A stretch of DNA of 64,000 nucleotides. It comes from Candidatus Neomarinimicrobiota bacterium. GTDB taxonomy: Bacteria; Fidelibacterota; Fidelibacteria; Fidelibacterales; Fidelibacteraceae. The position numbers and the translations under genes were made by a program. Within the stretch, counting starts at the first letter, position 1, and every line of letters begins with the position of its first letter. This document shows positions 30,352 through 50,180 of this stretch, one piece after another. The stretch covers positions 62,001-126,000 of the forward strand of contig JAGGVO010000041.1 in the NCBI GenBank assembly GCA_021157965.1, in the 5' to 3' direction. A model generated the notes under the pieces. That model was not told the DNA's origin. It was given only the letters and a program-made list of their open reading frames with translations, and searched no databases.

Positions 30352-31446
30352 CTATACATCAATGATATTAAACGATCCCGGGGAGAGTGATATCCCCTGC
30401 CGTCTTAAATCACTAAGGTCTGTAGACGTAACAATTATTTCTTTCAAATTCTGAATATGATTCAGCAATTTCCGGGTATGGTCAATATCCAGTTCCGAAA
30501 ACAAGTCATCAAATAAATAGAGCGGTACAATACCACCTTTCTTTTGAATATATTTACCCTCAGCCAGCTTCATACAGACCAACCAGAATTTTTTTTCTCC
30601 CTGGGAAGCCCCGGCCTTAAGGGCCTGTTCGGACCGTTTAAATTCAACCCGGTCATAGCCGGCGCCGCGCAGGGACCTTTTTAACAAGATTTCATTTTGG
30701 ATATTTCTACTGGATTCAGTTAAAAAATCATGGATATATGCGTCGTCTGTTTCGGGAGCAGATACGGAAGATTTGTACTCAATGAATACAGGAATATCCC
30801 GTTCGTCGATAGCCCGAAAATATTCCTGTAAAAAATCGTTCAGAATAGCAAAATTATCCTTTCGGAAAATATAAAGTTCCCGGGATAAAGGAGCCAGCTG
30901 CTCGTCATAGATTTCAAGCTGGGTATCGTAAGTGAAAGACTTTTTTTCATTTTTAAGTTTAAGATACGCATTTCGTTGTTTCAGCAGCTTGGAATAGCGA
31001 ATCAGGGTGATTAAATATTCATGGGAAACCTGGGAAAAAAGCCGGTCAAAATACTGACGTTTCAATTGAGGCGTTCCGCTTGTCAGCACTGAATCTTCCG
31101 GAGACAGGACCACGGCAGGCAATTTTCCGATCCAGTCACTATACCGTTCAACGGGCGCATCATTCAGAAGCAATTTTTTTCCCAGATTCCGGACCAGGGT
31201 GAATTTAACGGTCCCCAAATTTTCCCATTTGCTTTTAATCAAAGCATGATCAGAATCCCGCATGATGGCTTCAGCGTCCCGGGACGTTCGAAAAGAGCGG
31301 GTAAGGCAACTGAAAAAGATTGCTTCAAGAACAGATGATTTTCCCGACCCGTTCGAACCGAACAGAATGTTCAGGCCGGGAGAAAAGTTAAAAGTTTGCT
31401 TCTGAAAGCAGCGAAAATGTCTGAGTGTTAAAGTCTGCAACATCAT
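30352..31446 (-). CDS. recF: DNA replication and repair protein RecF
   Basis: A 364-aa SMC-like ATPase that loads RecA at gaps. Walker A is GSNGSGKSSVLEA (about residues 34-46), the signature-like region contains GASQGEKKFW, and Walker B is LFDDLFSELD. The start is separated from dnaN by a clear terminator hairpin (31461-31486), so recF may need its own promoter or read-through. Confidence 0.93.
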   Translation of the reverse strand: MMLQTLTLRHFRCFQKQTFNFSPGLNILFGSNGSGKSSVLEAIFFSCLTRSFRTSRDAEAIMRDSDHALIKSKWENLGTVKFTLVRNLGKKLLLNDAPVERYSDWIGKLPAVVLSPEDSVLTSGTPQLKRQYFDRLFSQVSHEYLITLIRYSKLLKQRNAYLKLKNEKKSFTYDTQLEIYDEQLAPLSRELYIFRKDNFAILNDFLQEYFRAIDERDIPVFIEYKSSVSAPETDDAYIHDFLTESSRNIQNEILLKRSLRGAGYDRVEFKRSEQALKAGASQGEKKFWLVCMKLAEGKYIQKKGGIVPLYLFDDLFSELDIDHTRKLLNHIQNLKEIIVTSTDLSDLRRQGISLSPGSFNIIDV

Positions 31447-31460
31447 TAAGGAGAATATAC

Positions 31461-31486
31461 AAAAAAGGGCGGTTTCTGCCGCCCTT
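31461..31486 (-). terminator. Rho-independent terminator after dnaN
   Basis: On the minus strand an 8-bp perfect stem AAGGGCGG / CCGCCCTT (31465-31486 including a 6-nt loop) is followed by TTTTTT. It begins 10 nt after the dnaN stop codon and ends about 15 nt before recF. Confidence 0.85.
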
Positions 31487-31496
31487 CTTCTGATTC

Positions 31497-32606
31497 TTAA
31501 AGCCGGATAGGCATGAGCAAAATCAACAGGTTTTCATTTTCTGCCTGTTCTTCAGGATAGAAAAGTCCTGCTGACAAGGGCGTATTGAGAAATATTTTTG
31601 CTTTTTCCCCGTCGATATGACGGATGGCTTCCTTCAGATACTCGGCATTATACCCGATGGTTAAAGGTTCTCCTTCGTAACTGAGGGACAATTCTTCTTT
31701 TGCCGTAGAAGCCGTTTCCACATCTTCCGTCGATATGACAACCTTGTTTTCGGTGAATGTCAAGGCAATCTGGTGAGTGTTTTTGTTGGAAAAAATGGAA
31801 ATTCTTTTAATAGCCGATAAAAAGGTATCAATATCAACAAGGACCTTATTGGGATTTTTAACAGGAATCACGCTTTCATAGTCCGGAAAGCGCTCCTCGA
31901 TAATCCGTGTGTAAATAACACTCTCTTCTGTTTCCAGCATGACATGATTTTTTCCCACCTTGAAGCGCACTTCATTAACGTTTTTGATATTGGCCACGCT
32001 GACATTAAGAAATTTAACGGGAATAATCACATCCCGCTCGAGTGTGTCGTTTTCAAAATTTTCATAGGTCAGCTGGACCAGTTTGTGCCCATCTGTTGCG
32101 ACGCCCCGCAGGGAATTTTCCCGGAACTGAAAAAGCACACCATTCAGGCCTGCTTTCATTTCATCGTGACTCACACAAAAGATGGTTTTTTCAACCATTC
32201 GCTGGAGTTTTTCCGTTGAAAAAAGAATGGTCGTACTGTCATCAATCAGGGGAACACCCGAAAATTCGGCAGAGGACCGTCCGGTTATGTGATATTCTCC
32301 ACCCTGAGGCGTTTTAATTTCAATACTTTCACCATCAACACTAAACGTTAACTCGGTTTCGGGAAGTTCAGATGTAATGTCGAGAATCATGCGTCCCGGT
32401 ATAGCAATGGAACCACCTTCTTCCACGTCAGCCTTGCAGAATGTTTCCATGGTAATTTCAAGATCTGTTGCTCTTAAACGAAGTTCTCCGTCTTCAGCAG
32501 TAACAAGAATACAACTCAGGATAGGCAATGTAGAACGGATCGGGGTTACTTTTGAGACCTTCTGCAGTGATTGGTAAAGATCATTTTTAGAAACGGTAAA
32601 TTTCAT
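31497..32606 (-). CDS. dnaN: DNA polymerase III beta subunit (sliding clamp)
   Basis: A 369-aa clamp that tethers Pol III to DNA. Three clamp domains are visible: MKFTVSKNDLYQSLQKVSKV..PILSCILV, the middle domain with RGVATDGHKLVQL, and the third ending in NENLLILLMPIRL (usual end MPMR[LV]). It is the first gene of the dnaN-recF-dciA-gyrB-gyrA block, which in most genomes directly follows dnaA but here lies 13 kb from it. Confidence 0.96.
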   Translation of the reverse strand: MKFTVSKNDLYQSLQKVSKVTPIRSTLPILSCILVTAEDGELRLRATDLEITMETFCKADVEEGGSIAIPGRMILDITSELPETELTFSVDGESIEIKTPQGGEYHITGRSSAEFSGVPLIDDSTTILFSTEKLQRMVEKTIFCVSHDEMKAGLNGVLFQFRENSLRGVATDGHKLVQLTYENFENDTLERDVIIPVKFLNVSVANIKNVNEVRFKVGKNHVMLETEESVIYTRIIEERFPDYESVIPVKNPNKVLVDIDTFLSAIKRISIFSNKNTHQIALTFTENKVVISTEDVETASTAKEELSLSYEGEPLTIGYNAEYLKEAIRHIDGEKAKIFLNTPLSAGLFYPEEQAENENLLILLMPIRL

Positions 32607-32646
32607 TGTATTAATTCCTTATTCTTTTTTAAAAATTACTAATAAT

Positions 32647-32675
32647 AATATACGGGTGGAAAGTGTGAATATCAC
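32647..32675 (-). promoter_or_regulatory. Candidate dnaN promoter
   Basis: Minus strand: GTGATA, 17-nt spacer, TATATT, about 40 nt before the dnaN start. It matches 4/6 and 5/6 positions of the sigma-70 consensus. The DnaA boxes lie just upstream of it. Read by eye only. Confidence 0.3.
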
Positions 32676-32717
32676 ATGTAAAGTGAAAAAAAATAAGCTT
32701 TTTGGACGCTTGAAAAT

Positions 32718-32829
32718 TGTGGATAACTTTATTGTTCATGTGGACAAGTTTTATGAATTCAGAGGAATTTTGTAATTTTGTCAAGTTGTTCATACACATT
32801 AACATGTTATTAACAGGAGATGTGGATAA
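32718..32829 (+). other. DnaA-box cluster upstream of dnaN
   Basis: Two perfect boxes, TGTGGATAA at 32718-32726 and 32821-32829, plus one with a single mismatch (TGTGGACAA, 32739-32747). All are in one orientation, in an AT-rich 223-nt gap between surA and dnaN. The box at 32821 abuts the stop codon of the surA-like gene. The site could regulate dnaN, titrate DnaA, or be part of a split origin. Confidence 0.75.
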
Positions 32830-34116
32830 CTATCTTTTGATTTCAACATAGAACTTTTTATAAAGAGAATCCAGCCAACGATTCCAGGCTTCCTGTTTTT
32901 TTTGTGATGCAGCCATGTTTTCCAAAATATTATAATGGGTTTCCAATGTGATTCTTTCAGAAGGCTTCCGCTTATTAAGCTTCAGTATATGATAACCAAA
33001 AGAAGTTTGAAAAGGTTTGGAAATTTCCCCTTCTTTCATTGTATCCACAACCGATTTAAATTCTTCAATCTGCAGTGTGTTAACAGGAAATTCTCCCAAA
33101 TGCCCTTTATTGGTTTCAACATCAGGATCTTCGCTGTACCGAAGAGCAAAATCCTCAAAACCCCCACCAGAAAGGATTGAATCGCGGATTGTGGACAACA
33201 TGTGGATAGTTCTGGCGTTATCTGTTTCATCCTTCTTGATTTCAAAAAGGATATGTGCCGGGTTTACCAATTCTCCCCGCCGTTCTACCAGTTTTATCAG
33301 GTGAAGGCCGAACTGAGTTTCCACAATATCTGAAATCTCGCCTTCTTTCAGAGAAAAAGCGGTTTTTTCGAAATTGGGAACAAAAGTACCTTTAGGTGAA
33401 AAACCCAATTCTCCTCCATTAGCGGCTGAGGGACGGTCGGCAGAAAATTCACGGGCCGCTTCGTCGAAAGAAATTTCTCCGGACAGGATTCGTTCTCTTA
33501 AGGCCTTTAACTCTTCACGTTTTTGGTTCACTTTATCTTCTGAGGGGTTCGGAATCATCAAAATATGGCTGATATCGACCCGTTCCGGAATATCAGGTAT
33601 AGAATCCCGGTTTTCTTTATAGAAAGACACCACTTCCGGGCGACTGACGCTTATGTTGCCGAAACGCTCATTCTGAATTTGTTGTACGATCAAAGAACTT
33701 TTCACACGATCATATAGGAATTCGCGGATTTTTCTCATGGGCAGATTGAAAGCCTTTTCAATTTGTTCTTCTGATCCAAAGACATCCATATACTGCTGAA
33801 GCTGCTGATCCAGAGACGTTTGAATATCCCTTTCCCGGACAACAATGGAATCTTCTTCGGCCTGAAGAAGGATTATTTCCATGTTGATTAATTCATGCAG
33901 CGCATCATTTTGCATGGACATAAAATCGTTATCAGTCATGGAGGATGGATTCGCGCCGGAAGAGCGCAGCATTTCTATGGTAAGCTGCTGCACATCAGAG
34001 TATAAAATAATTTCCTGTCCCACAATCGCTGCGATACCGTCTACCAGTTGCTGGGCGTTCAGAGGAAAGAGCCCGAACAGTATGAAAAGAATTCCTTTAC
34101 TTAAGTACTTCAACAT
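32830..34116 (-). CDS. surA: SurA-like periplasmic peptidyl-prolyl isomerase/chaperone
   Basis: A 428-aa exported protein. The signal peptide ends LFPLNA followed by QQLVDG. An N-terminal SurA chaperone region (VDGIAAIVGQEIILYSDV) precedes two parvulin domains: ISHILMIPNP...GGELGFSPKGTFVPNFE...GLHLIKL and PAHILFEIK...KGHLGEFP...SFGYHILKL. It helps outer-membrane proteins fold, which fits a genome with a 2041-aa SprA barrel. The start overlaps the preceding parvulin-like gene by 20 nt. Confidence 0.93.
   Translation of the reverse strand: MLKYLSKGILFILFGLFPLNAQQLVDGIAAIVGQEIILYSDVQQLTIEMLRSSGANPSSMTDNDFMSMQNDALHELINMEIILLQAEEDSIVVRERDIQTSLDQQLQQYMDVFGSEEQIEKAFNLPMRKIREFLYDRVKSSLIVQQIQNERFGNISVSRPEVVSFYKENRDSIPDIPERVDISHILMIPNPSEDKVNQKREELKALRERILSGEISFDEAAREFSADRPSAANGGELGFSPKGTFVPNFEKTAFSLKEGEISDIVETQFGLHLIKLVERRGELVNPAHILFEIKKDETDNARTIHMLSTIRDSILSGGGFEDFALRYSEDPDVETNKGHLGEFPVNTLQIEEFKSVVDTMKEGEISKPFQTSFGYHILKLNKRKPSERITLETHYNILENMAASQKKQEAWNRWLDSLYKKFYVEIKR
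33190..33209 (+). repeat. Tandem DnaA-box-like pair inside surA, shared with the dnaA origin
   Basis: TGTGGACAACATGTGGATA (33190-33208) is identical over 19 nt to 45586-45604 in the dnaA upstream region. Each copy contains two near-consensus DnaA boxes 11 nt apart. Here it lies within the surA coding frame. Confidence 0.6.
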
Positions 34117-39701: not shown

Positions 39702-39717
39702 GGTTTCACGTGAAACA
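39702..39717. other. parS site in the mnmG-mfd junction
   Basis: GGTTTCACGTGAAACA matches the parS 16-mer TGTTTCACGTGAAACA at 15 of 16 positions, with a perfect 14-bp palindromic core (39703-39716). It occupies exactly the 16 bases between the mnmG stop and the mfd start codon. ParB is expected to bind here for origin segregation. Confidence 0.9.
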
Positions 39718-41568
39718 TCAGGTCAAATAAACAAGGAGAATCTGAATATCTGACGGAGATACTCCCCGGATCCTGCCGGCTTGTCCCAGGGTTTCGGGTC
39801 GAAAACGTTTTAGTTTTTCCCGGCCCTCATTTGAAAGGGATTTAACTTTGTCGTAATCGAAATGTTCGGGGATATTTTTCTCTTCCAGCAGCCTCATTTT
39901 TTTCACCATTTGTTCCTGTCTCCGGACATATCCTTCATAGAGGATTTCAATGAAGGCCTGATCCAGGCTGTGAAACTGATATTCAGAAAAGAGTTCCCGG
40001 TGTAAAGCCCGAAGATGTTCCTGGCGGAGAAGGTGTTTTTTGATCAGGCGGTCATATCGTTCGGTTCGGGTTGGCGAGAGAGGCCGCGACGCGTCTTTGG
40101 GATACGCATTGAATTTAAAGAAATCTTTGATGTGGTTTCGCTCCCGTACCGAGGTTTTAAACCGTTCGATCATTTCCTGAGATTGTATTCCTATATTTTG
40201 GGCAGCCTGATACAGGCGATGGTCGGCATTGTCTGCCCGGAGGATAAGGCGGTATTCGGCGAGACTGGTAAACATCCGGTATGGTTCGTCGGTTTCTTTG
40301 GTAATCAAATCATCAATAAGAACACCAATGTAGGCGTCAGCACGGGAAAAAATCAACGGTTCAAGTCCATCCAGCGAACGGCTGGCATTTACAGCCGCCA
40401 TAAACCCCTGGACCGCCGCTTCCTCGTATCCGCTTGTCCCATTGATTTGTCCGGCAAAATATAGGCCCGACACATCTTTTGTTTCCAAGGAATGCCGAAG
40501 CTGATAGGATGGGAAATAATCATATTCGATGGCATAGCCGGGTTTGATAAATTCCGCCTTTTCCAGTCCGGGGACGGTTCTCAGAGCCTTAAACTGAATA
40601 TCTATGGGGAGGGACGAGCTGAAGCCGTTAATATACCACTGTTCCGAGCCCTCCCATTCCGGTTCAATGAAGAGCTGGTGAGAGGGCTTTTCGTGAAACC
40701 GGACGATTTTATCCTCGATGGATGGACAGTAACGTGGACCGGTTCCCCGGATATCTCCGGCATAGAGAGGGGAACGATGAAGTGCGGACCGCAGAATATC
40801 GTGGGTTTTCTCTCTTGTGTGGGTCAGGTAGCAGGGGATATCTTTGGGATGAAAATGGGTTGTGGCATAAGAAAAGGGTTCCGGATCCTGGTCGCCGTAC
40901 TGAGGTGTCATGCGTGAAAAATTGATGGAGCGTCGGGTTATACGGGACGGGGTTCCCGTTTTAAGGCGTTTTACCACAAACCCTTCCGCTTTCAGTTGGT
41001 CACTGAGTCCTGTAGAGGGGAGCTCACCATAGCGCCCGGCAGAAATTTGCACCGGTCCGATATGAATCAGCCCGTTTAAAAAAGTGCCGTTAGTGAGAAT
41101 GACGGTTTTTCCGGGGACATTGCGACCGTCTTTGAGCTGAAGGCCGCGGACCGAGGAGCCAGAAAACAACAAGCGGTAGCCTTCACCCTCGATGATGTAA
41201 AGACTTTCAGTGCTTAAAAGGGTTTTCTGCATATAATCGGCATACCGGCGTTTGTCTGCCTGGGCTCTGGGGGACCACACAGCCCGCCCCTTGGAACGGT
41301 TCAGCATTTTGAACTGAATTCCGGTCTGGTCTATCGCTCGGCCCATTTCACCGCCAAGAACATCCAGTTCACGAACCAGGTGCCCCTTGGCCAGTCCGCC
41401 AATGGAGGGATTGCAACTCATGCGGGCAATGCTGTTCAGCGACAGGGTGACCAAGGCTGTCTTTTTCCGAAGCCTGGCAGCCGCAAGAGCGGCCTCCACA
41501 CCGGCATGACCGCCGCCGACCACGATTACGTCAAATTCATCTAAAGGGCGTTTCACGTGAAACATCAT
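39718..41568 (-). CDS. mnmG: tRNA uridine-5-carboxymethylaminomethyl modification enzyme MnmG
   Basis: FAD/NADH-dependent partner of MnmE that modifies U34 of tRNAs. The 616-aa chain has the FAD motif VIVVGGGHAGVEAALAAARL, SLNSIARMSCNPSIGGLAKGH, TGTFLNG-like TNGTFLNGLIHIG, FAGQINGTSGYEEAAVQGF, and the C-terminal helical domain. The start codons encode MMFHVKRP because a parS site overlaps them. It follows mnmE with adjacent stop and start codons. Confidence 0.96.
   Translation of the reverse strand: MMFHVKRPLDEFDVIVVGGGHAGVEAALAAARLRKKTALVTLSLNSIARMSCNPSIGGLAKGHLVRELDVLGGEMGRAIDQTGIQFKMLNRSKGRAVWSPRAQADKRRYADYMQKTLLSTESLYIIEGEGYRLLFSGSSVRGLQLKDGRNVPGKTVILTNGTFLNGLIHIGPVQISAGRYGELPSTGLSDQLKAEGFVVKRLKTGTPSRITRRSINFSRMTPQYGDQDPEPFSYATTHFHPKDIPCYLTHTREKTHDILRSALHRSPLYAGDIRGTGPRYCPSIEDKIVRFHEKPSHQLFIEPEWEGSEQWYINGFSSSLPIDIQFKALRTVPGLEKAEFIKPGYAIEYDYFPSYQLRHSLETKDVSGLYFAGQINGTSGYEEAAVQGFMAAVNASRSLDGLEPLIFSRADAYIGVLIDDLITKETDEPYRMFTSLAEYRLILRADNADHRLYQAAQNIGIQSQEMIERFKTSVRERNHIKDFFKFNAYPKDASRPLSPTRTERYDRLIKKHLLRQEHLRALHRELFSEYQFHSLDQAFIEILYEGYVRRQEQMVKKMRLLEEKNIPEHFDYDKVKSLSNEGREKLKRFRPETLGQAGRIRGVSPSDIQILLVYLT
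41549..41564. other. parS site at the 5' end of mnmG
   Basis: CGTTTCACGTGAAACA (core GTTTCACGTGAAAC at 41550-41563) matches the parS consensus at 15/16. It overlaps codons 2-6 of mnmG, so its conservation also fixes the peptide FHVKR. With the site at 39702 it brackets mnmG. Confidence 0.9.
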
Positions 41569-47648: not shown

Positions 47649-48035
47649 ATGAACCGTAATTCTGCGAACAAGGTGATACTTGTTGGTTATTTGGGAAATC
47701 AGCCTGAAATGCGATATACTCCCAATGACATTATGACCACTACATTCAATTTGGCGACCAATTTTGTGTGGCGGGACGAAGAGGGAGAATTTCAGGAACG
47801 GACGGATTGGCATCGGATTGTGGCCTGGCGGAGTCTGGCTGAATACGCCAAAAGCCTGAAAAAAGGACAGTTGCTCTATGTAGAAGGACATCTGCAGTCA
47901 CGGGAGTGGACGGATAAAGACAATAGTAAACACTTTGTTACAGAAGTCATTGCAGAAACCCTTACGATGCTTGGTGCCCGGAAAAGGGGAGAAAACAACA
48001 ATGGAAATGAGTCGGGCAAAGTGAATCAGAATTGA
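47649..48035 (+). CDS. Second single-stranded DNA-binding protein, no acidic tail
   Basis: A 128-aa SSB paralogue: NKVILVGYLGNQPEMRYTPND, RTDWHRIVAWRSLAEYA, LLYVEGHLQSREWTDKDN. It ends GNESGKVNQN, without the DDLPF-type tip of the SSB at 23913. Start at 47649 (MNRNSANK) with AAGGAGG upstream and a strong promoter. Its stop overlaps the convergent radical SAM gene by about 10 nt. It may serve in competence, recombination or stress, or form mixed tetramers. Confidence 0.9.
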   Translation: MNRNSANKVILVGYLGNQPEMRYTPNDIMTTTFNLATNFVWRDEEGEFQERTDWHRIVAWRSLAEYAKSLKKGQLLYVEGHLQSREWTDKDNSKHFVTEVIAETLTMLGARKRGENNNGNESGKVNQN

Positions 48036-49195
48036 TCCCTGTGGCGGGGGGTGCTAAAAGAGAGATAATCTTCTAAATGCGGCGGTTCGGAAAGTAGTCC
48101 CGGAAAGTGATGGTAGAGGTGGCGGGCAAACCAGTAATCCAGTTCTCCATTACTGCCCGGGGCTTTTCCCGTGACAGCCGTCCAGGTTTCGGAATCTTCC
48201 ATACAAAAATAGATAAAAACATCCGGACCGCCATATTTTCTGAGTAATTTGAAAATATGTTGATACAGGCGGATGCGCAGAGGTTTGAAATATCGCAATT
48301 TGCCATCCATGCCTCTTATCATCTCGGCATCCAGAAGGTGGGTTCCGGGAAAACGGCTTAGAATTTTTTCTTTCATATCCGGTGGAAAGCGAAGAGATCC
48401 CATGGAAATCCAGGCAATCCGTGATGAAGGTGCTACGTTAAACAGGTGCTGAATGGTTTTTTCGTAATCTTTTTTCCAAGAGGGATAATAGAGGATGGGA
48501 TCGAAATGAAATGCCAGTTTATAGCCGGCTTTTACTGCCAGTTCCACAGCTTTCAGGCGCCGTGGCAGTGACGCAGCTCCATGTTCTTCGGCCCGGATGA
48601 CTGCCGGGGGATTTATGGACCAGGCAAGAATGGTTTTTCCTTTGTGATTTTCATGTAACAGCGAATGAATCCGGTCAGATTTTGTTTTCAATTCCAGAAT
48701 CATATTCGGAGTATAAGCAGCAAAACGAATTAATGGCTGGGCAAAGTGCCCTTCTTCGTTTAGAGCAAGACTATCTGCCAGTTCACCGGTTCCGATTCTG
48801 AAAAAGCGCCGTGGTTCCCGTGACATTCTTTCCCGGATCTGGCCGATCATCTTTTCCGTATCGGTGAATACGGTGAGATAGGGATTGTTTAAATAGTACT
48901 GGAGTATGCAGTAGCTGCAGTTGAAGGGACAATTCAGGGATTGGTTCAGAACCCAGTAATTACAACAAATGTATTTTTCAGATGTGCCGGGACAGGGTTT
49001 AAATACCTGACCGCGGCTTTCCGCCAGCAAAATCTTGTTTTTTATCACCCCTTCCGGTTTGTTCCCCGGCAGAAGGTCTTCAGGTTTTTCAGCCGAAACA
49101 GATTTTTCAACTTCATAAACACGCCTGAAATGTTTCAGAATCTCACCACGGGACTTGTTCAGGATGATCAGTGATTTTATGTCTCTGTCCGTCAT
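48026..49195 (-). CDS. Spore-photoproduct-lyase-like radical SAM protein
   Basis: A 389-aa radical SAM protein of the SPL type: CX3CX2C in LNCPFNCSYCILQYYL (Cys89, 93, 96), FRIGTGELADSLALN (as GxGExTDSLAL of SPL), LELKTKSDRI, LAWSINPPAV and AFHFDPILYYPSW. SPL repairs thymine-dimer spore photoproducts in Firmicutes; SPL-like proteins also occur in non-sporulating bacteria with unknown roles. A further Cys pair (YICCNY) lies upstream of the cluster motif. It is coupled by an ATGA overlap to the ParB-domain gene, so the two probably work together. Confidence 0.85.
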   Translation of the reverse strand: MTDRDIKSLIILNKSRGEILKHFRRVYEVEKSVSAEKPEDLLPGNKPEGVIKNKILLAESRGQVFKPCPGTSEKYICCNYWVLNQSLNCPFNCSYCILQYYLNNPYLTVFTDTEKMIGQIRERMSREPRRFFRIGTGELADSLALNEEGHFAQPLIRFAAYTPNMILELKTKSDRIHSLLHENHKGKTILAWSINPPAVIRAEEHGAASLPRRLKAVELAVKAGYKLAFHFDPILYYPSWKKDYEKTIQHLFNVAPSSRIAWISMGSLRFPPDMKEKILSRFPGTHLLDAEMIRGMDGKLRYFKPLRIRLYQHIFKLLRKYGGPDVFIYFCMEDSETWTAVTGKAPGSNGELDYWFARHLYHHFPGLLSEPPHLEDYLSFSTPRHRDQF

Positions 49196-50124
49196 AATTC
49201 GAGTCGCTCTTTCAGCAATTTTTTTAAAGATTCCTTTGTTTTTTTGTACCAGAACAAAAATTCATCAGCTTCTTGTTCGTTTCGGATAGTTGCGGAAATT
49301 TCAGCTCCGGGTCTTTCTCCATTTTTATCGCTTTGCACTGTAACAAAACGTGGGGAATTCAGTGCCTTTAATGAGTTTTCAATCTTTTTTTCATATCTGC
49401 TTCGCAGGGGGTAGCGTCTTTCCCGGATGCGCAGGAACAGGCTTTCCGGCCGGATCTGATCCTCCTTGAATTCATCCAGGATTGTCCTGAGGATTTTCCC
49501 TGTGGAAACCCCCTCCCGTTTCTCGATTTCCGACAACATAATCACAGTCTGTTCAAGGCGATTCAGACCAAAATTCACATTCAGCAGGGATGTACATGCC
49601 TGGAGGTCCACAGCCTCGCATATGGCTTTGATCCGGCGCCCCGGAACCGCGTGATCTGTAAAGAAACATGCCCATTTCTGCGGAAGGTTTTTCATACACA
49701 GGTATATTTTGTGATAATCCGGCCGGTCGGGAAGGTTCAATGCCTGCATGATTTCGGAAGCATCTGCGTGTGAATGCATGTTTCTCAACATTAGATATGC
49801 GGACACCTTTTCAATGAAGGGCAGGGTTCCCCGGGCATCCTGTTTCAGGATGAGAGCAAGGTGAGTCCTCCACGTGAAGTCCTTCTCCGCAATGTGAATA
49901 ACCGGTACGGAAAATGAAGAAGGAAAGTGTTTTGATAACGCATGGATGCGTTTAAAACCATCAATGATCATAGGATGGTTGTTTTTTGTCGTGATATACA
50001 ACGGATCGCAGATACCGGTTTTCACCATGGTTTGCGCCAGGGTCTCATCCTTCAGATAGGTTCTGTATCGGAAATCAGTGTTACTTTGTTTGAAATGTTT
50101 TAAAGGCAAGTATGTTAATTTCAT
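49192..50124 (-). CDS. ParB-like N-terminal domain protein
   Basis: A 310-aa protein. Residues ~1-75 resemble the ParB/sulfiredoxin-like domain (LPLKHFKQSN, MVKTGICDPLYI, MIIDGFKRIHALSKHF, where DGFKR stands for the DGxRR box). The middle is helical (VSAYLMLRNMHSHADASEIMQALNLPDRPDYHKIYLCMKNLP), perhaps a KorB-like helix-turn-helix. The C-terminus is charged. It is not the canonical chromosomal ParB: there is no parA neighbour and the order differs. AAGGAG lies 8 nt before the ATG. It is co-transcribed with the SPL-like gene. Confidence 0.7.
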   Translation of the reverse strand: MKLTYLPLKHFKQSNTDFRYRTYLKDETLAQTMVKTGICDPLYITTKNNHPMIIDGFKRIHALSKHFPSSFSVPVIHIAEKDFTWRTHLALILKQDARGTLPFIEKVSAYLMLRNMHSHADASEIMQALNLPDRPDYHKIYLCMKNLPQKWACFFTDHAVPGRRIKAICEAVDLQACTSLLNVNFGLNRLEQTVIMLSEIEKREGVSTGKILRTILDEFKEDQIRPESLFLRIRERRYPLRSRYEKKIENSLKALNSPRFVTVQSDKNGERPGAEISATIRNEQEADEFLFWYKKTKESLKKLLKERLEL

Positions 50125-50180
50125 TCAACGCTCCTTTCATTGGAATTTACACAGAAGTCCGCAAGGTCATAACGGAACTT

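Follow-up and report, generated by a model that had tools for sequence, protein, structure and literature searches.

Organization and Genomic Setting of the P-S Locus

The window, a 64,000-nucleotide stretch of DNA, belongs to a Neomarinimicrobiota genome of 2.3 Mb that is 96% complete. It contains two overlapping genes, herein referred to as P and S, encoding a ParB/Noc-like protein and a radical SAM protein with the fold of spore photoproduct lyase (SPL), respectively (Table 1). Both open reading frames and their 4-nt overlap were confirmed as given in an earlier note on this DNA. Other members of the genus, as well as the loci L114 and L130, show an identical overlap of P and S.

Table 1. 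Features of the P-S locus and of its surroundings (coordinates within the window).
Feature	Position	Strand	Basis or details
S, radical SAM protein, SPL fold, 389 aa	48026..49195	-	PF20903, E 2.4e-24; SPL structures by sequence and fold; invariant columns (45 relatives)
S residues			Radical SAM cysteines C89/C93/C96; GTGE motif 135-138; further family-invariant cysteines C68, C77, C78, C331
P, ParB/Noc-like protein, 310 aa	49192..50124	-	Profile against Spo0J 6sdk, E 1e-16; AF2 model; conservation
P domains			ParB-N ~1-100 (DGFKR box); HTH region ~100-185; private C-terminal alpha-beta-beta-alpha domain ~226-310
ATGA overlap, P stop/S start (translational coupling)	49192..49195	-	Sequence; reads TCAT on the + strand
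Shine-Dalgarno-like AAGGAGCGTTGA immediately 5' of P start	50125..50140	-	Sequence
dnaA	45763-47178	+	Named by eye
TTATCCACA boxes near dnaA	45719, 45762		Sequence
TTATCCACA boxes at GC-skew minimum	32718, 32821		Sequence
parS-like sites	39702-39717, 41549-41564		One mismatch each to TGTTTCACGTGAAACA

The flanking genes lie on the strand opposite to P and S, as had been claimed. The genes dnaA and ssb, to the left of the pair, and a MATE-type gene to the right of P are all on the forward strand; these three names were assigned by eye from the sequences. The 3' end of S reaches 10 bp into the 3' end of the convergent ssb. The earlier note had also placed the pair about 3 kb from oriC. The position of dnaA and the two TTATCCACA boxes near it, 2-4 kb off, agree with this distance, but the minimum of the cumulative GC skew, at 31-34 kb, does not. 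Two more such boxes were found at this minimum (31000-34000), 12-15 kb from dnaA. The replication origin may lie elsewhere than at dnaA. An association with oriC was rejected as a general trait of the pair: this placement next to dnaA and ssb is confined to the genus of the window and is not shared by the family.

Two parS-like sites were found in the window, where 0.18 sites with three or fewer mismatches are expected. These sites fit the canonical ParABS system of the chromosome, not P.

S, a Radical SAM Protein with the SPL Fold

The match of S to the Pfam family for SPL (PF20903, E 2.4e-24) reaches 86 bits, above the cut-off of 27. Scores are below the cut-offs for the SPL equivalog TIGR04070 (109 bits versus 400) and for a second SPL family model (43 bits versus 438). 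When the AlphaFold model of S (pLDDT 88.8, pTM 0.91) was compared with the PDB, the top six matches were all SPL (TM 0.72/0.82), and the next enzyme followed at TM 0.37. The SPL fold proposed for S is thus supported by both the Pfam match and the model. The two motifs reported previously, CX3CX2C (CPFNCSYC, C89/C93/C96) and GELADSL (within GTGELADSL), are present. They show little or no variation across 45 relatives, with the three radical SAM cysteines invariant throughout. Tyr97 of SPL is retained as Y95, and the Lys and Ser of the SPL SAM pocket are conserved.

Two catalytic residues of SPL are replaced in S. The position of the H-donor, Cys141(Bs)/Cys140(Gt), is occupied by the invariant E138 within GTGE, and the position of the radical-relay residue Tyr99(Bs) by I97 in the window and by Ile or Val in the displayed relatives. 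In SPL, Cys141 and Tyr99 form a radical relay regenerating SAM, and mutants in either residue consume SAM, as its recycling stops (PMC3742179). Because this relay is lost, S is predicted to consume SAM and to release 5'-deoxyadenosine. Judged by these residues, S is no SPL in terms of the chemistry that defines SPL.

Four additional cysteines, C68, C77, C78, and C331, are invariant in the 45 relatives, which come from several phyla. They are shared by S and its sister subfamily Sx (see Companion Genes NUC and GT2) and are absent as a set from SPL and from the SPL-family, clostridial-type, and tandem relatives. Since these cysteines come and go as a set, they suggest a putative second metal or Fe-S center.

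The earlier note had described S as a DNA-repair lyase. With Cys141 and Tyr99 replaced and four new invariant cysteines present, this proposal is not supported as worded. In a modified form, S would use SPL-like chemistry, with C68 as the H-donor, to reverse a DNA lesion of the thymine type or another one generated by radicals, and P would recruit S to the damage. The SPL fold and the conserved SAM-pocket residues of S are in line with this, as are ssb and dnaE found nearby. An alternative H-donor role is possible for C68, whose counterpart in the alignment with Geobacillus SPL is S76, the residue exchanged for Cys in structure 4rh0 (C140A/S76C); the clostridial SPL also uses a different cysteine, C74, as its H-donor (PMC5368176). 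However, C68 is aligned four residues off the Cys of a clostridial-type relative, and as part of a four-cysteine set it fits a ligand better than a lone H-donor. A role of C68 as a clostridial-type H-donor is attractive but tentative. The loss of Tyr99 also argues against lesion repair. A further objection comes from the hosts, which, judging by the organism names, are presumably mostly non-sporulating anaerobes of dark habitats. Overall, we regard lesion repair by S as unlikely, though well worth weighing.

P, a ParB/Noc-Like Protein

On its own, the sequence of P gave weak or chance matches in Pfam, NCBIfam, and the PDB (e.g., keratin and antibody chains), with Noc among the weak family matches (E 6.5e-4). 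The score against the Noc model TIGR04285, with a cut-off of 315, was 19 bits for the P of the window and 67 bits for that of locus L124. A profile of 36 members matched Spo0J/ParB (6sdk) with E 1e-16 as well as further ParB/Noc chains, and SbnI weakly. The AlphaFold model of P has a pLDDT of 93.3, and its best PDB fold matches (Foldseek) are Noc and ParB. The N-terminal ParB-like domain with the DGFKR box, recognized in the earlier note, is thus confirmed, and the structural models give a ParB fold for P and an SPL fold for S.

P differs from chromosomal ParB in its motifs. A loosely defined box of the G-x-[RK]-[RK] type was found in eight of the 36 P members, and some lineages have no such box; the P of the window has DGFKR. 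The GxRR-type box II, which binds nucleotide in ParB, is degenerate in most members. The earlier note had also considered a kinase-like role for P; since most relatives no longer have the motif for nucleotide binding, such a role appears unlikely for most members. The median pI of P is 6.7, and the protein is not generally basic. P-bearing genomes contain a separate match to canonical ParB (50-68 bits), and no ParA-like gene was seen by eye beside P in the neighborhood lists. The separate ParB together with the two parS-like sites led us to reject P as the chromosomal ParB. P is a plausible candidate for a guide that would bring S to its target.

Conservation in P is highest in the C-terminal domain, which had no meaningful match among PDB sequences. 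Its best-conserved positions are P239 (93% of 56 orthologues) and E270 (98%). One could imagine this domain as the substrate itself: S would modify this domain, which contains the almost invariant E270, the glycosyltransferase GT2 (see Companion Genes NUC and GT2) would glycosylate it, and P would be a modified DNA-binding protein. Modification of a protein whose gene lies beside that of the enzyme is common among radical SAM enzymes. Nevertheless, P has no conserved Cys, Gly, or Ser motif resembling a core peptide, and the SPL barrel is not known as a peptide modifier, so that P as a substrate seems very improbable.

Co-Inheritance of P and S

Orthologues were defined by thresholds of at least 110 bits for P and at least 300 bits for S, which separate them from other ParB and SPL-like proteins. 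Among 119 Neomarinimicrobiota genomes, both genes were found in 45 and neither in 70. P alone was found in two genomes (G061 and G122) and S alone in two others (G019 and G049), in both of which S is a fragment. Fisher's test gave p ~8e-28, uncorrected for shared ancestry. Joint absence occurs even within a genus: in g17, S, P, and GT2 are all present in genome G068 and all missing from genome G033.

P and S are adjacent, in that order and on one strand, in 35 of the 45 Neomarinimicrobiota genomes having both. Among 80 relatives from named genomes, P lies directly upstream of S in 38, including MAGs of Elusimicrobia, Cloacimonadota, KSB1, and Aerophobetes. Where P was not seen adjoining S, it was located elsewhere in the genome in 21 of 23 cases. 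In genus g2 (L063-L067, L072, L074, and L083), S starts 0-3 bp after dnaE, and P is found elsewhere in the genome.

Unlinked genes were found in the class of a Desulfobulbaceae MAG (Desulfobulbus-type). S is present in 69 of the 78 genomes of this class. P was found in all 69 of these (68 full-length and one split, in G228) and in none of the nine genomes without S. Here P follows an HU/IHF gene and S lies near ssb; adjacency of S to ssb occurs in two phyla. Each of the neighbors related to DNA (dnaE, ssb, and HU/IHF) was seen in one or two lineages.

The proposed co-occurrence of P and S in other genomes is therefore borne out in both data sets, and the view that they are made together and functionally coupled is supported by the ATGA overlap and by co-inheritance. 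It is near certain that P and S work together, the strongest evidence being the strict co-inheritance even without linkage; co-inheritance of this kind usually marks parts of one machine. If P and S were mere co-transcribed neighbors with no functional link, conserved adjacency within one phylum could be obtained from shared descent alone. This explanation, to which we assign next to no probability, is refuted by the co-occurrence data, as P tracks S without linkage in other phyla and the two are lost jointly, e.g., in G033 compared with G068.

No relatives of S were found in a scan of viral contigs. A role in anti-phage defense was rejected, since neither S nor P of the window matches a PADLOC model and S is absent from viral contigs. 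The P-S system apparently resides in core, not mobile, DNA of several phyla of mostly anaerobic bacteria.

Companion Genes NUC and GT2

Clustering of neighboring genes revealed two recurrent companions: a family-2 glycosyltransferase (PF00535), herein named GT2, and an MTAN-type nucleosidase (PF01048), herein named NUC. The order NUC-GT2-P-S was found in eight Neomarinimicrobiota loci, forming one operon in several families. Other arrangements are NUC-P-S in Cloacimonadota, GT2-P-S in L124, GT2-P in L171, and GT2-S-ssb in Desulfobulbia. In the genome of the window, NUC and GT2 form an overlapping two-gene operon outside the window (L199:4797-6250, ~G000:C41:146796-148249), in which the GT2 orthologue (~C41:147404-148249) lies ~36 kb beyond P-S.

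A GT2 profile found a single clear orthologue in 41 of 47 S-bearing Neomarinimicrobiota genomes, in 26 of 33 with other SPL-like proteins, and in two of 39 without any; both of the latter carry P. In the Desulfobulbia-type class, GT2 was found in 62 of 69 genomes with S and in none of nine without S. GT2 and, judging by gene neighborhoods, NUC usually belong to the P-S system. With the same profile, GT2 was mostly missing in genus g2 and was not found in single MAGs of Elusimicrobia, KSB1, and Cloacimonadota. Glycosylation is not obligatory everywhere, since some S-bearing lineages have no GT2.

NUC and GT2 also accompany two other SPL-like subfamilies. The sister subfamily of S, Sx, shares all seven cysteines with S and is set apart by GSGQ and HFH motifs. 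GT2-NUC-Sx operons were found at L190, L192, and L197, in genomes without P; Sx, unlike S, is not accompanied by P. In the phylogenetic tree, S and Sx lie on one side of a branch that separates them from the rest (85/96, not starred). Clostridial-type members occur with GT2 in some Neomarinimicrobiota genomes (G029 and G072). In Fusobacterium vincentii, a protein of 623 aa (L142:1580-3451) appears to be a fusion of an MTAN-like domain and a clostridial-type SPL-like domain. SPL-like relatives of another branch were found at L184 (G073:C168) and in G079:C199, forming a tandem pair in G073.

The companions bear on the function of S. A pathway of modification or biosynthesis accounts for them no less well than the repair lyase of the earlier note. 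If S were a repair enzyme, NUC would clear 5'-deoxyadenosine, and GT2 would be incidental or active elsewhere, which leaves its presence unexplained. The companions could instead point to synthesis of a glycoconjugate or of a small molecule bearing a sugar: S would attach 5'-deoxyadenosyl or another group derived from a radical, NUC would remove adenine, GT2 would transfer a sugar, and P would act in regulation or metabolism as a ParB-fold protein, like SbnI in siderophore synthesis. The same gene logic is found in HpnH/HpnG (hopanoids), MqnE/MqnB (menaquinone), and arsenosugar clusters. The best model matches of NUC are HpnG, MTAN, and futalosine hydrolase, and GT2 scores with arsenosugar and mycofactocin glycosyltransferase models; all these scores, however, are far below the equivalog cut-offs. 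The occurrence of NUC-GT2 with other SPL-like subfamilies and the weak match of the P profile to SbnI are consistent with such a pathway. On the other hand, the fold of S is closest to SPL, far ahead of other enzymes, and P resembles DNA-binding ParB/Noc proteins, including the HTH region, and has lost the nucleotide-binding motif in most members. Moreover, neighborhood analysis revealed no further biosynthetic gene recurring across lineages near P or S. A small-molecule product is, in our estimate, as improbable as lesion repair.

Proposed Function of the P-S System

Tentatively, and with a clear possibility of being wrong, we prefer base modification to either of the other two readings, lesion repair or a small-molecule product: P and S, usually with NUC and GT2, would form a SAM-consuming system for radical modification of a base, probably on nucleic acid, rather than for photoproduct reversal. 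S would bind a second metal or Fe-S center, consume SAM as a co-substrate, and initiate radical chemistry on a base in nucleic acid, thymine in DNA being what the SPL barrel accommodates. The ParB-like P would bring S to the target. NUC would clear inhibitory 5'-deoxyadenosine or else take adenine off an adenosyl adduct, and GT2 would add a sugar to the product. Radical SAM enzymes are inhibited by 5'-deoxyadenosine (PMC8102628), and an MTAN-like NUC beside S fits the proposal. Nucleic acid is suggested as the target because of the SPL barrel, the ParB-like partner, and the neighbors dnaE, ssb, and HU/IHF; a sugar on the product is suggested by the presence of GT2.

Several observations weigh against base modification. 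P is not generally basic, and the ParB box motifs are lost in several lineages. The DNA-related neighbors are each limited to one or two lineages, and GT2 is missing from genus g2 and from several phyla with S.

A bolder version, which we hold to be rather improbable, is oxygen-independent hypermodification of DNA, in which an SPL-derived enzyme with a second cluster would act on thymine or another base, P would pick the sites, and GT2 would add a sugar to the base. If true, this would be an anaerobic counterpart of base-J-type modification, located on the chromosome across several phyla.

No description of the P-S pair was found in the searched literature on SPL with ParB, SPL homologues, ParB-like proteins with radical SAM enzymes, or SPL with glycosyltransferases. 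The main text of a 2025 ParB-fold survey contains no mention of radical SAM or lyase partners. P and S come from known superfamilies; no earlier account was found of their combination or of the altered active site. The system would extend SPL chemistry beyond spores and give a ParB-fold protein a role outside chromosome segregation. If its target is DNA or RNA, it would add a new pathway of modification or repair.

Comparison with Known Systems

S shares with SPL (SplB; PF20903, TIGR04070; PDB 4fhc-4rh1) the barrel over most of the chain, the CX3CX2C motif, Y95 (corresponding to Tyr97), and the Lys and Ser of the SAM pocket. It differs from SplB in its sequence (22-23% identity), in the replacement of Cys141 by Glu (GTGE) and of Tyr99 by Ile, in the four extra invariant cysteines, in a longer C-terminus, in its fixed ParB-like partner, and in a score of 109 bits versus the 400-bit equivalog cut-off. 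The SPL-family (TIGR03886) and clostridial-type SPL proteins belong to the same superfamily, and the latter are accompanied by GT2 in G029 and G072. Both, however, form tree branches separate from S, lack the four extra cysteines, and occur in genomes where no P was found.

SplB-like photolyases linked to SOS polymerases offer a parallel, as radical SAM proteins resembling SplB that are encoded in a DNA-related operon (PMC3765255). Their partners are SRAP, ImuB-C, and Ku/ligase, none of which was noticed near S. P has the ParB-N fold and the HTH region in common with ParB/Spo0J and Noc, but its box is degenerate in most members, it has a C-terminal domain of its own, and no parA was seen beside it. 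The HpnH/HpnG, MqnE/MqnB, and arsenosugar sets, which to our knowledge use radical SAM families different from that of S and contain no ParB-like protein, share with the P-S system the combination of a radical SAM enzyme and a PNP-type nucleosidase, joined in some of them by a family-2 glycosyltransferase.
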